Source of the DNA: Candidatus Peregrinibacteria bacterium
GTDB lineage: Bacteria > Patescibacteriota > Gracilibacteria > UBA1369
Length of the DNA: 64,000 nucleotides
Reading direction: 5' to 3'
Assembly (NCBI GenBank): GCA_003153355.1
Contig: PLYH01000005.1
Location: 97,810-161,809, forward strand
Shown here piece by piece: positions 16,578-24,837 of the stretch. A program made the translations under genes and the position numbers. Under the pieces are notes generated by a model. It made no database searches. It saw only the letters and a list, made by a program, of their open reading frames with translations, and was not told the DNA's origin. How positions within the stretch are numbered: the first letter of the stretch is position 1; the number at the start of each line of letters is the position of its first letter.

Positions 16578-17603
16578 TTATTTTTTGTTTGTTTTTTTGT
16601 TGGATTTCTTGGATTTTCCAAGCTTTCTGCGGTTGAGGAAAAGGGTCAGGGCAAACATGCCTCCATAGACGTAATCTTCGGGTCCGGAGCTTGCAAGTTT
16701 TCCTTTATATACCGGCTTTATAGCCATGGATGCAGATGCAGCCGTTGCTGCTTGTTCTGCGGCCGCTGTCATGGCTGGCTGTTGTGCGGCTGCAGATGCA
16801 GGTGCCTGTGCGGCTGTTGCGGCGCTTCCGATATTGCTCAAACTTGCGCTTAAGGACTGATATGCTGCGTTATGAAGATCCGCCGCTGAAGGTGCCGGAG
16901 CTGATGCGCTGTTCGGATAGGTAGTGTCGGGTTCTGTTAATGGCGGAGGAATAACGGCCTGTTCAGTTGCAGCCTGGGTTTGCGGTGTCTGTACGGCTGA
17001 AGTATCATTTGTTCCGGTAGAAGTTGTTCCGCCGAGACCGAATGAAGATCCTGCGCCGAATCCGCTCAAAATTTGTTCGGTGCTTGGTGCTGCTGGAGTT
17101 CCCACAATGATATAACCCTTCATTTGAGGATCAAAGCTGCTCTGATAAGAAAATGATCCCCCGTCATTAAAGGCGTAGGTGAAGCTGTCGCCAGGGTTTA
17201 GCGTCGAGCTGGTGAAATTATCGCCGACAACATTATGAGGCACTGTGTCCTGATTGGTCCAAACGACTGTTGTTCCAGGTGTAATACTGATGGTCGCAGG
17301 CTGGAAAGAATAATTGGAAATGGCAACCTGCTGGGTATCTCCGGTTTGCGTAGTCATGCCCTGTGTGCCGGATTGCATTGAACTTGAACCGAGTATATCC
17401 GTACGGACTTCAACCGGTTCCTGAATCCAATAAGCAATGTATGCCGCAAAGCCCACGACGAGCAAAGCTGCCACGACTTTGATTTTGGTTCCGACCGTGA
17501 CTTCTTCCTCCTGGGTCTCCTGATTTTCGTTTTCAGGATTTACCGGCGTTTGGGCCTGATTTTGATCTTCGTTTTTATTGAAGAATTTTTTGAAGAGATC
17601 CAT
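16578..17603 (-). CDS. Membrane protein with degenerate cupredoxin-like domain and sortase-like tail
   Basis: 341 residues. A polar Gln/Asn/Glu-rich N-terminus and a transmembrane helix (VVAALLVVGFAAYIAYWI, about 43-60) are followed by an external plastocyanin-like domain (about 95-170), starting SFQPATISITPGTTVVWTN. The first copper ligand is present (His in VPHNV). The second cluster, usually Y-x-C-x-x-H-P-x-M, reads YQSSFDPQMKG, so the Cys and second His are lost. An Ala/Gln/Thr/Ser-rich low-complexity stalk runs to about residue 300. The C-terminus is LASSGPE, a short hydrophobic stretch (YVYGGMFALTLFL) and a basic tail (NRRKLGKSKK). This resembles a sortase sorting signal of the LAxTG kind. 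It could be a wall-attached stalk protein rather than a copper carrier. Confidence 0.75.
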   Translation of the reverse strand: MDLFKKFFNKNEDQNQAQTPVNPENENQETQEEEVTVGTKIKVVAALLVVGFAAYIAYWIQEPVEVRTDILGSSSMQSGTQGMTTQTGDTQQVAISNYSFQPATISITPGTTVVWTNQDTVPHNVVGDNFTSSTLNPGDSFTYAFNDGGSFSYQSSFDPQMKGYIIVGTPAAPSTEQILSGFGAGSSFGLGGTTSTGTNDTSAVQTPQTQAATEQAVIPPPLTEPDTTYPNSASAPAPSAADLHNAAYQSLSASLSNIGSAATAAQAPASAAAQQPAMTAAAEQAATAASASMAIKPVYKGKLASSGPEDYVYGGMFALTLFLNRRKLGKSKKSNKKTNKK

Positions 17604-22878: not shown

Positions 22879-23351
22879 ACGACGACATCCAGGAACAATC
22901 GGAACGGATTTTCGGCAGAGGGGGCAAAAGACCGACGGTTGGATGCGACTGCGTGATTCTGATGCAGCGTGAGGGCATGTGGTGGGTGCTGCTCATAGAG
23001 CGCGGCCATGGACCTTATAAAGGGCGATGGGCCCTTCCGGGCGGCTTTATGGAGTGGGGAGAAAGCTGCGATCAGGCGGCAGCGCGCGAACTTTTGGAAG
23101 AGACCTCGCTCAATAACGTTGATTTGAAACTCTTAGGAGTGTTTTCAAAACCCGGCCGCGATCCGCGGGGAACAATCGTCTCAGTTTCTTATATCGGAAC
23201 CGTGGATGCTGCGTCCGCTTCCAAAGCAACGGGCGGCGATGATGCGGTCCGCGCTGAATGGTTTCCTTTAAACCAGACGCCCGAACTTGCCTTTGACCAT
23301 GGCGATATTTTGGCTTCAGCAAAATACTATTTGAACTCCGGCAAGCTCTAA
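22875..23351 (+). CDS. NUDIX hydrolase, ADP-ribose pyrophosphatase-like
   Basis: Hydrolyses a nucleoside diphosphate linked to another moiety, in the cytoplasm. The ATG at 22875 overlaps the preceding stop (ATGA). The 158 residues contain a full Nudix box, GGFMEWGESCDQAAARELLE followed by ET, with the metal-binding REx2EE core intact. The downstream GRDPRGTIVSVSYIG segment resembles ADP-ribose-type NUDIX proteins. The early segment VGCDCVILMQREGMWWVLLI gives the first strand. The pairing with a nicotinamidase-like gene suggests salvage or clean-up of NAD-derived compounds. An 8-oxo-dGTP or other substrate is possible. Confidence 0.88.
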   Translation: MNDDIQEQSERIFGRGGKRPTVGCDCVILMQREGMWWVLLIERGHGPYKGRWALPGGFMEWGESCDQAAARELLEETSLNNVDLKLLGVFSKPGRDPRGTIVSVSYIGTVDAASASKATGGDDAVRAEWFPLNQTPELAFDHGDILASAKYYLNSGKL

Positions 23352-23361
23352 ATTTTTTCCG

Positions 23362-23380
23362 AAAAAAGATTCGAAAATCC
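23362..23380 (-). terminator. Weak hairpin plus T-run at the end of the putative RNA array
   Basis: Read on the minus strand, GATT-TTCG-AATC is followed by TTTTTT. The stem is short, so this is only a candidate 3' end for the RNA transcribed leftward from about 24603. Confidence 0.35.
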
Positions 23381-23430
23381 CGTTGCAGCTTAGGCCGCAC
23401 CGGGTAAAACTTTTTTACGTTGAGGATTTT

Positions 23431-23706
23431 TATCCCCCTCGAATTTCTGAAACAAAAAGATACTAACCACAACAACGATAAGGAGTTGCGAACAATTACA
23501 TGTGAGTGTCCGAAGACGAAACGTCAGGATACCTGTTCTTTGAATGACTTCAAAACCCATCAAATAAAGACAAGCACGGGAACACTTAGCTGGGCGCTGA
23601 TGTTACCGACCCTTAATATATTCAGAAAATCGAGGGAGGGAGCTGTCTTGAGGACTGAGGGTCAAAATGAACTGACCAAAGCTCAGTCCGAAGACAGCTC
23701 TCTCCC
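23431..23706 (-). repeat. RNA-array module copy C
   Basis: The long hairpin lies at 23706-23634. On the minus strand its arms are GGGAG, GAGCTGTCTT and GGACTGAG against CTCAGTCC, AAGACAGCTC and CTCCC, with an inner GGTCA/TGACC. A GTC-UUCG-GAC hairpin lies at 23517-23508. The tail GAGGGGGAT pairs with a nearby ATCCTC. Confidence 0.6.
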
Positions 23707-23760
23707 GCGATTACTTTTGCTGATTTTCAAAAAACAATTTTTTGCGGACTGAAAAATTTT

Positions 23761-24160
23761 CAGTCCCCCTTAAACTTGACGAGGCAGATTTCAAACATCT
23801 GAACATCTTGGAAATTATTGGTTTCCTCGATAGTCACTTATCGCATTCCATCACTGAAATACAACAGTACCTCTCTCATTTACCGGCATCTTGCGTCTGA
23901 ACCAAAGAACCGAAGTTCCATGAAACAAAAAACGAGGCGTCGATACATGAAGCTCAATCTCTTTTCTCTGCAGCCTGGTCTTTTAGACCCGCCAAGCGAA
24001 AGAAATAAGCACGCTAAGAACCTGGGGGACTCTTAGACGCGGTTTTACTCTCCATCGCGCAAAGCCTAAGGAGGAAGCTGTCAAGGATCTCAAGTATGAA
24101 ACCGACCATATCAATATAACCGATTTGATCAATACCTAAGGTCTTTGACAGCTTTCTCCC
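23761..24160 (-). repeat. RNA-array module copy B
   Basis: The long hairpin lies at 24160-24070, with outer arms GGAGAAAGCTGTCAA and TTGACAGCTTCCTCC. A GAAC-UUCG-GTTC hairpin lies at 23918-23907. The tail AGGGGGACTG (23770-23761) leads into a strong hairpin pairing GGACTGAAAA with TTTTCAGTCC. Confidence 0.6.
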
Positions 24161-24220
24161 TACCTTTGCAATCCGTTTGGAAAGCTTTATTTTGATTTTT
24201 TAAAGAACAATTTTTTATTT

Positions 24221-24564
24221 TAGTCCCCTGAGCGGAGGACCGAACATCGAACCCAAAAGAGAATATGAAATTTCTTTCGTGGAAATGTCCGAAGACATTG
24301 TCCGAAGTGTGTCGGCGAATAAAGTTTGATCCAAAGCCGAAGCGATGAAAGCAAAACTTCATGATGTCGAAACAGTTCATTCGATCTCTTTCTTTAAGCA
24401 CCTGATCTCCAAGCCCATCAAGTGTTGAAGAGAAAGCATACGGAGGAGTTCTGGGAGAACTCTCCAAATGATCCGATCCTACAAACTCAGGAGGAATCTG
24501 CCTAAGACTCTATAACTGATGATGGTGGGACCATGCAGTAGCAAAGTTCCAGGCAGGTTTCTCC
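24221..24564 (-). repeat. RNA-array module copy A (promoter-proximal)
   Basis: The long hairpin lies at 24564-24490, with outer arms GGAGAAACCTGCCT and AGGCAGATTCCTCC and a tip of ATGG-TCCCA-CCAT. An AATGTC-UUCG-GACATT hairpin lies at 24299-24284. The tail AGGGGACTAA is at 24229-24220. Confidence 0.6.
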
Positions 24565-24609
24565 GGAGGTTGAGGTTTTTCTGATTGTCAAAAATCACTA
24601 TTTCCTTAA

Positions 24610-24639
24610 ATTCTATCATATAAAACAAATATCTGTCAA
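24610..24639 (-). promoter_or_regulatory. Strong leftward promoter of the RNA array
   Basis: On the minus strand, a perfect TTGACA (24639-24634), an 18-base spacer and TAGAAT (24615-24610) preceded by TGA (an extended -10). No protein gene lies downstream in this direction before the convergent NUDIX gene. Confidence 0.75.
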
Positions 24640-24762: not shown

Positions 24763-24837
24763 GCCGGGATAGCTCATTGGTAGAGCGCTGCCCTGAAGAG
24801 GCAGGCGTACTCAGTTCGATTCTGAGTCTCGGCACCA
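24763..24837 (+). tRNA. tRNA-Phe (anticodon GAA)
   Basis: A full cloverleaf. The acceptor pairs GCCGGGA with TCTCGGC, the D arm is GCTC/GAGC, and the anticodon arm is CTGCC-CTGAAGA-GGCAG with GAA. The T arm is CTCAG-TTCGATT-CTGAG. The discriminator A and CCA are encoded. The SLH gene at 24867 starts 29 bases downstream. Confidence 0.96.

Follow-up and report, generated by a model that had tools for sequence, protein, structure and literature searches.

RESULTS

Genes and features of the locus

The window, by which we mean the whole stretch of 64,000 nucleotides that was analyzed, comes from a Candidatus Peregrinibacteria genome of 1.46 Mb in 7 contigs (G000). Within it, three long hairpins occupy the 1.4 kb that separate a Nudix-like gene from tRNA-Phe. 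The top promoter-like site between positions 23000 and 25000 lies on the minus strand at 24639-24610 and is divergent from tRNA-Phe; given this promoter, the RNA should run leftwards through hairpin A, then hairpin B, and then hairpin C. The predicted noncoding RNA, its promoter, and its neighbors are as follows:

Ends at 23351, plus strand: Nudix-like gene, named from its own sequence
23380 to 24603, minus strand: predicted noncoding RNA, approximate extent about 1.2 kb, from promoter and conservation
24610 to 24639, minus strand: RNA promoter TTGACA-18-TAGAAT, its -10 element preceded by TG; 11/12 matches, near-consensus
24763 to 24834, plus strand: tRNA-Phe (Rfam search), divergent neighbor, outside the RNA

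The 5' end of the RNA was placed from the promoter position, and the 3' end is a guess by eye, prompted by T-rich DNA and a GC-rich hairpin around 23373-23404. Only short open reading frames (ORFs) are present in the region, and this, together with the many indels between the repeated units described below, argues against a protein product. We infer that such an RNA is transcribed, processed, and functional.

Compensatory change in the hairpins

A sequence-only reading of this DNA had placed hairpins at 24490-24564, 24070-24160, and 23634-23706 and had taken matched substitutions in their arms as direct evidence for selection on secondary structure rather than on sequence. The hairpins are indeed present there and fold far below dinucleotide shuffles, with z values (plus/minus strand) of -9.8/-8.7 for C, -6.8/-6.9 for B, and -5.1/-5.3 for A and with 0/200 shuffles folding as well as each of them. 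Their extents in the present analysis are as follows:

24486 to 24568, minus strand: unit A hairpin (strands S1 and S2), formerly copy A; fold z -5.3, arms aligned
24066 to 24163, minus strand: unit B hairpin (S1 and S2), formerly copy B; fold z -6.9, covariation
23631 to 23709, minus strand: unit C hairpin, formerly copy C, orthologous to the relatives' terminal hairpin; fold z -8.7, 75.7 bits with covariance model R2 (a match by construction)

The inner arms read as they had been quoted, but the outer 3' arm given as TCCTCC is TCCCTCC in copy C, and the pairing reported for the inner stem of copy A is kept except at the first inner position, where C opposite A is a mismatch. When the window copies A, B, and C were considered alone, 6/20 stem positions were doubly changed (shuffle mean, 2.6; 21/2000 as high), which is suggestive but weak, because any three unlike hairpins appear compensated. 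The real evidence comes from orthologues. Across 11 unit hairpins taken from 5 genomes, the number of doubly changed cells was 26 (shuffle mean, 8.4; 0/2000), a figure that, like all the covariation counts given here, takes no account of kinship among the sequences. The five orthologues of hairpin B yielded 12 such cells (0/2000 shuffles), and compensation was not significant among the five orthologues of hairpin A alone (154/2000 shuffles). The earlier reading would have been contradicted by sister genomes that keep the sequence and lose the pairing; the relatives instead change both arms and keep the pairing. Covariation among orthologues thus bears out selection on structure, while the words "rather than on sequence" hold only in part, since most of the block GGAGARAGCTG is common to the hairpins and a mismatch of A opposite C is found in 11/11 unit hairpins.

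Unit plan, core, and terminal hairpin

Apparently, the hairpins do not stand alone: each forms the 5' part of a unit, and the three units belong to one large minus-strand RNA. The predicted RNA consists of tandem units, each about 350 to 400 nt long. As comparison of the units revealed, a long hairpin (S1 and S2) stands on the 5' side, two stem-loops follow as the core, and strand S3 comes on the 3' side. No core was recognizable in the third window unit (C), and hairpin C is not a simple third copy, its orthologue in the relatives being a separate hairpin in terminal position. A CRISPR array, with short near-identical repeats and unique spacers, was rejected, as the units are several hundred nucleotides long with 62% mean column identity. 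The core features of the window are as follows:

24374 to 24471, minus strand: unit A core with stem 1, stem 2, and loop-loop pairing; 26.2 bits with covariance model R1
24014 to 24036, minus strand: unit B core stem 1, whose loop CCCA (24023-24026) pairs with the stem 2 loop; covariation
23973 to 23997, minus strand: unit B core stem 2, whose loop CGGG (23988-23991) pairs with loop 1; covariation

The loop of stem 1 has five bases, four of which are paired to the longer loop of stem 2. In window unit B, 3/4 of these pairs are standard and the remaining one is A opposite C. In ten units from 8 genomes, 94.2% of the 190 cells of the core helices, loop-loop pairing included, were paired, and 33 doubly changed cells were counted (shuffle mean, 11.2; 0/500), with slid controls pairing at 49% or less. 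The first loop-loop pair was kept in 10/10 cores, as CG in 4, AU in 3, and GC in 3. In the terminal hairpin, 94.4% of cells were paired and 9/18 pairs were doubly changed (0/500 shuffles). Pair counts were taken from alignments other than A1, A2, A4, A6, and A9, of which A4 was misaligned and A9 contained a false G005 row. G004, which would not align, was left out of A5 (A4 minus G004); G011, nearly the same as G007, was omitted from A3, A5, and A10; and unit G006a was placed in A10 by position.

The pairings also bear on the strand. With the minus strand taken as the RNA, G-U cells outnumbered A-C cells 27:4 in the core helices and 9:3 in the terminal hairpin; the two were equal in the unit hairpins (17:17) because the invariant A opposite C supplies 11 of the 17 A-C cells. 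Folding energy favors neither strand. The plus strand was rejected as the RNA, since the promoter, the G-U/A-C asymmetry, and the T runs all point to the minus strand.

Three further observations concern the relatives. Two units of G008 (L056:1142-1894) are near-identical, leader included, which indicates that an entire unit was duplicated in tandem not long ago. In L056, L057, and L058, the 5' strand of the terminal hairpin, AGGUUGCC, has two possible downstream partners, and a shared-strand theme like that described in the next section may recur in the terminal unit there. Lastly, L056, L057, L058, L060, L061, and L044 share a small hairpin near the 3' end, before a T run or the contig end; its loop, similar to CUGGUCA, is conserved, and its arms vary and seem to pair.

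One strand with two alternative partners

RNAalifold, applied to two separate five-unit sets, paired the end of the hairpin 3' arm (S2) with the end of the unit and not with the 5' arm (S1). The sites of S3, the strand at the unit end, in the window are as follows:

24225 to 24240, minus strand: unit A S3, partner of S2; best site in 400 nt, 68/200 shuffles as good, position fits the other units
23766 to 23781, minus strand: unit B S3, closes the unit with S2; 0/200 shuffles as good, covariation
23434 to 23449, minus strand: unit C S3; 0/200 shuffles as good

The best complement of S2 within the next 400 nt was the unit end in 15/16 units, 256 to 260 nt off in 10/16; only in unit G003A did it fall elsewhere. 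At most 3/200 shuffles were as good in 9/16 units, compared with 9 to 177/200 in the other 7; 9 to 71/200 shuffles matched the S2-S3 complementarity in window unit A and in units G003B, G007A, G009A, G010A, and G008b. Over 15 units (G003A, having no S3 site, was excluded), the S2:S1 pairing showed 11 doubly changed cells over 8 positions (mean, 1.9; 0/5000). The S2:S3 pairing showed 34 over 14 positions (mean, 13.6; 0/5000), a count lowered by a one-base shift of the S3 of G007A. Both signals persisted in a set of 8 units, one from each genome, with counts of 16 against 5.9 for S2:S3 (0/5000) and 4 against 0.6 for S2:S1 (2/5000), and when whole strands were dealt out the corresponding values were 1/5000 and 19/5000. 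Selecting S3 by its complementarity to S2 favors pairing and helps these numbers. By covariation, then, S2 is one strand with two alternative partners, S1 and S3. Minimum-energy folds computed for 11 isolated units paired S2 to S3 in 8 cases and to S1 in 3, and blocking S1 cost 0 to 8.3 kcal/mol; in such folds the two states of S2 appear to differ little for the most part, with S2:S3 usually favored in a complete unit. An explanation of the invariant A opposite C, in which the C would pair with a G of S3, was also tried; by eye it fits window unit B, G007B, and G010B only and does not fit window unit A, G003B, G009B, or G008.

Mutually exclusive pairings raise the possibility of an attenuator or riboswitch-like leader, in which S1 and S3 compete for S2 and the S2:S3 pairing of the last unit, with a T run, sets termination versus readthrough into the next gene. 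The competition among S1, S2, and S3 is seen as covariation, and attenuation is the main rival to a stable, rRNA-like RNA because T runs follow the last S3 in several genomes: in G008, G012, G006, G004, and G001, a run of T5 to T7 starts no more than three bases after the last S3-like strand, with a same-strand gene beyond, and the last S3 of G003 is followed by TTTTTATTT. However, the gene downstream varies among the genomes and in the window is the Nudix-like gene on the opposite strand, and where same-strand genes lie downstream, an extended -10 promoter seems, by eye, to intervene. Moreover, internal units have no T run, and the most constant neighbor is the divergent tRNA. We regard attenuation as unlikely.

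boxA-like elements ahead of the hairpins

Each window unit carries one boxA-like element, 27 to 46 nt ahead of its hairpin. For scoring we used a 14-base consensus, which we take to represent boxA and which fits the leader of the host 23S rRNA gene, TTGTTCTTTAACAATT. The elements are as follows:

24584 to 24597, minus strand: unit A boxA-like element TGATTTTTGACAAT; 12/14 to the consensus, 2/500 shuffles
24197 to 24210, minus strand: unit B boxA-like element TTGTTCTTTAAAAA; 13/14, 0/500 shuffles, GTTCTTTAAAA fits GYTCTTTAANA
23724 to 23737, minus strand: unit C boxA-like element TTGTTTTTTGAAAA; 13/14, 0/500 shuffles

Over 11 hairpins from 5 genomes, no more than 6/500 shuffles scored as well in 8, those of the window included, and the match was unconvincing for G003B (73/500), G007A (185/500), and G007B (474/500). 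The published consensus GYTCTTTAANA is gamma-proteobacterial, according to the available text of its source (PMC5725501). This gamma-proteobacterial form has one exact match in the window, in unit B, against an expectation of 0.38 and with one match in 32/100 shuffles. A derived boxA pattern, composed after the sites had been seen, has just two exact matches in the whole genome, in unit B and in the 23S leader; with one mismatch allowed, there are 13 matches, compared with 8 for the reversed control. It is likely, as judged from these matches, that the elements are boxA. In the host, the 16S and 23S rRNA genes lie about 5 kb apart (L030, G000:C4:1-6241), separated by two tRNAs and apparent protein genes, one of the latter a zinc-ribbon-like ORF by eye. 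The 23S gene seems to be served by a promoter of its own, with a terminator-like hairpin and, after it, boxA.

Repeated boxA could also act in trans, as a sponge for NusB and S10 that titrates the antitermination factors and ties rRNA output to their supply. The presence of an element in every window unit and of the same element ahead of the host 23S gene would suit such a role. On the other hand, boxA is weak or absent ahead of 3/11 hairpins, though the core is kept in those units, and a sponge would have no need of the core. A sponge is quite improbable.

Distribution and orthologous loci

Orthologous loci were found in 12/13 genomes of one Candidatus Peregrinibacteria family, 9 of them with R3, the covariance model built from ten cores, and 3 reduced forms by eye (G001, G002, and G004). 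The matches of a DNA search that were taken as orthologues are those in G003, G007, G009, G010, and G011; the rest were short and AT-rich. The plan is the same in the relatives: a TTGAC(A/T) promoter is followed by one or two units, each having hairpin and core, and in most relatives the terminal hairpin comes last. A counterpart of the promoter with 10 or 11 of 12 matches precedes 12/12 loci; at most 5/300 shuffles held as good a site in 7/12 loci, and 15 to 56/300 did so in the other 5. A tRNA adjoins the RNA in 9/12 loci, the exceptions being G011, where tRNA-Phe is more than 2 kb off, and G009 and G010, without a tRNA on the stretch read. In G011 (L035), an ORF-rich stretch of more than 2 kb lies between tRNA-Phe and the RNA, which are adjacent in its close relative G007. 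On the 3' side of the RNA, a cupredoxin-like membrane protein gene was recognized by eye in five relatives (L056, L057, L058, L060, and L061), and a cupredoxin-like gene also occurs in the window at 16578-17603 on the minus strand, by eye and about 6 kb from the RNA.

The family matches of each model mostly include the rows from which it was built, and the R3 matches of all A10 rows are by construction; with that proviso, R1 (five unit-B cores) matched 9/13 family genomes and, falsely, G005 and 0/76 others of the order, R2 (terminal hairpin) matched 8/353 class genomes, all within the family, and R3 matched 9/13 family genomes with a best match of 5e-20 or better. Elsewhere in the class, R3 gave weak matches in 6/340 genomes (E values of 6.5e-5 to 0.008), of which L095 and L096 were read; the others are L097 and the matches in G039, G174, and G324. 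Among 379 genomes of the phylum, only the window's own genome and one match inside an ORF were returned; these large covariance searches used stricter filters, by which weak matches are lost. No credible match outside the family emerged from the class and phylum covariance searches, the weak class matches having been read in part. A scan of genome contigs for the core pattern returned 7 records from Candidatus Peregrinibacteria, Candidatus Gracilibacteria, a Patescibacteria group bacterium, and one, probably by chance, from Myxococcales (L070), which scores only 10.3 bits with R3. Also set aside as chance were L098 and L095, whose matches lie inside long ORFs, and L096, a single hairpin without the architecture. 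The R1 match in G005 is weak (21.9 bits) and lies in coding-like sequence, R3 finds none there, and no locus was found in that genome.

A palindromic element of a mobile or selfish kind, whether REP-like or an ornate RNA borne by a prophage, might have come to lie beside tRNA-Phe by chance. Its tRNA-adjacent position, the varying number of units, and the near-identical units of G008, as a recent duplication, are compatible with this. There is, however, a single locus per genome, the tRNA neighbor recurs in 9/12 loci, the promoter is conserved, and viral contigs contained no exact match of the core pattern. Such an element is very improbable here. Chance or DNA-level hairpins with no RNA function are scarcely credible, given the covariation in the core, terminal hairpin, and closing stem.

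Comparison with RNA families

Rfam 15, which presumably contains the OLE, GOLLD, and ROOL models, returned two tRNAs only at gathering score for the whole window. For the 1.56-kb region at E values up to 5, it returned the tRNA and miRNA, lncRNA, and CRISPR-repeat models far below cutoff, and for eleven relative loci at E values up to 0.1, tRNAs and subthreshold miRNA matches to hairpins; tmRNA models matched another part of L044. The microRNA-family matches, being far below cutoff, are those expected of any long hairpin. Neither an unrecognized RNase P RNA nor an unrecognized tmRNA accounts for the RNA, since genuine ones lie above cutoff elsewhere in the host genome, at C2:205853-206212 and C5:110329-110751, respectively. 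No description of the RNA turned up among paper listings from the open-license part of PubMed Central.

DISCUSSION

Proposed mechanism

Quite probably, the region encodes a large structured minus-strand RNA with a strong promoter and tandem units, in which S2 would be handed over between partners, boxA would allow readthrough, and a nuclease might cut the product. A stable, rRNA-like RNA is preferred because it accounts jointly for the promoter, the boxA-like elements, the stems, and the missing reading frames. In such an RNA, S1:S2 would pair first, during transcription, and once the unit is complete, S3 would displace S1 on lower S2 and so close the unit. The boxA-like elements would recruit NusB and S10 and thereby let the polymerase read through a long RNA that is untranslated and rich in hairpins, much as happens in rRNA operons. 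By analogy with pre-rRNA, we would guess that a double-strand-specific nuclease of the RNase III type cuts the upper hairpins and that the compact unit RNAs left after cutting serve as a scaffold or binding partner. More speculatively, this may be a new large class of bacterial RNA, with shared-strand units, transcription-timed folding, and boxA pacing, that works like a pre-rRNA assembly line for a nonribosomal RNA particle of ultra-small Patescibacteria, a suggestion that we offer tentatively and consider doubtful in this full form.

The locus apparently specifies a long noncoding RNA, new to RNA databases, that is built from repeated folded units and has to date been seen in a single family of tiny uncultured bacteria. 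Its shared-strand, tandem-unit plan is unusual for the large structured RNA classes. Patescibacteria have very small genomes, yet more than 1 kb is given here to a promoter-led, structured, apparently untranslated RNA. The RNA also offers a testable case of tandem, covarying, mutually exclusive pairings and, perhaps, of boxA use outside rRNA.

Comparison with known systems

In attenuators and the expression platforms of riboswitches, two strands compete for one. The predicted RNA is like them in the two mutually exclusive pairings of S2, both covarying, and unlike them in that the competition occurs in every unit, no regulated gene is constant, and internal units have no T run. With the leaders of rRNA operons, as far as the available text of PMC5725501 describes them, the RNA shares a strong promoter, a long stem whose 5' strand is closely preceded by a boxA-like element, and a stem that encloses a domain. 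It differs from them in that no rRNA lies inside, the 3' arm of the hairpin has two partners, and boxA is incomplete in some relatives.

In the portions of PMC12286853 available, OLE, ROOL, and GOLLD are long, highly structured RNAs without a protein, with covariation-backed loop-loop pairings and a poorly understood function; ROOL and GOLLD are often near tRNAs and are borne by phages and prophages, and ROOL can equal 16S rRNA in abundance. As far as that account goes, the predicted RNA is likewise long, structured, without a protein, and furnished with a covarying loop-loop pairing, and like ROOL and GOLLD it is usually beside a tRNA. Unlike OLE, ROOL, and GOLLD, it has tandem units, boxA-like elements, and a strand shared by hairpin and closing stem. 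In contrast to the phage- and prophage-borne ROOL and GOLLD, at least as the same partial text presents them (PMC12286853), it has a chromosomal tRNA neighbor and belongs to one bacterial family. Although no Rfam model places the RNA there, among ornate RNAs, so far as the available descriptions go, its closest resemblance is to ROOL or GOLLD.
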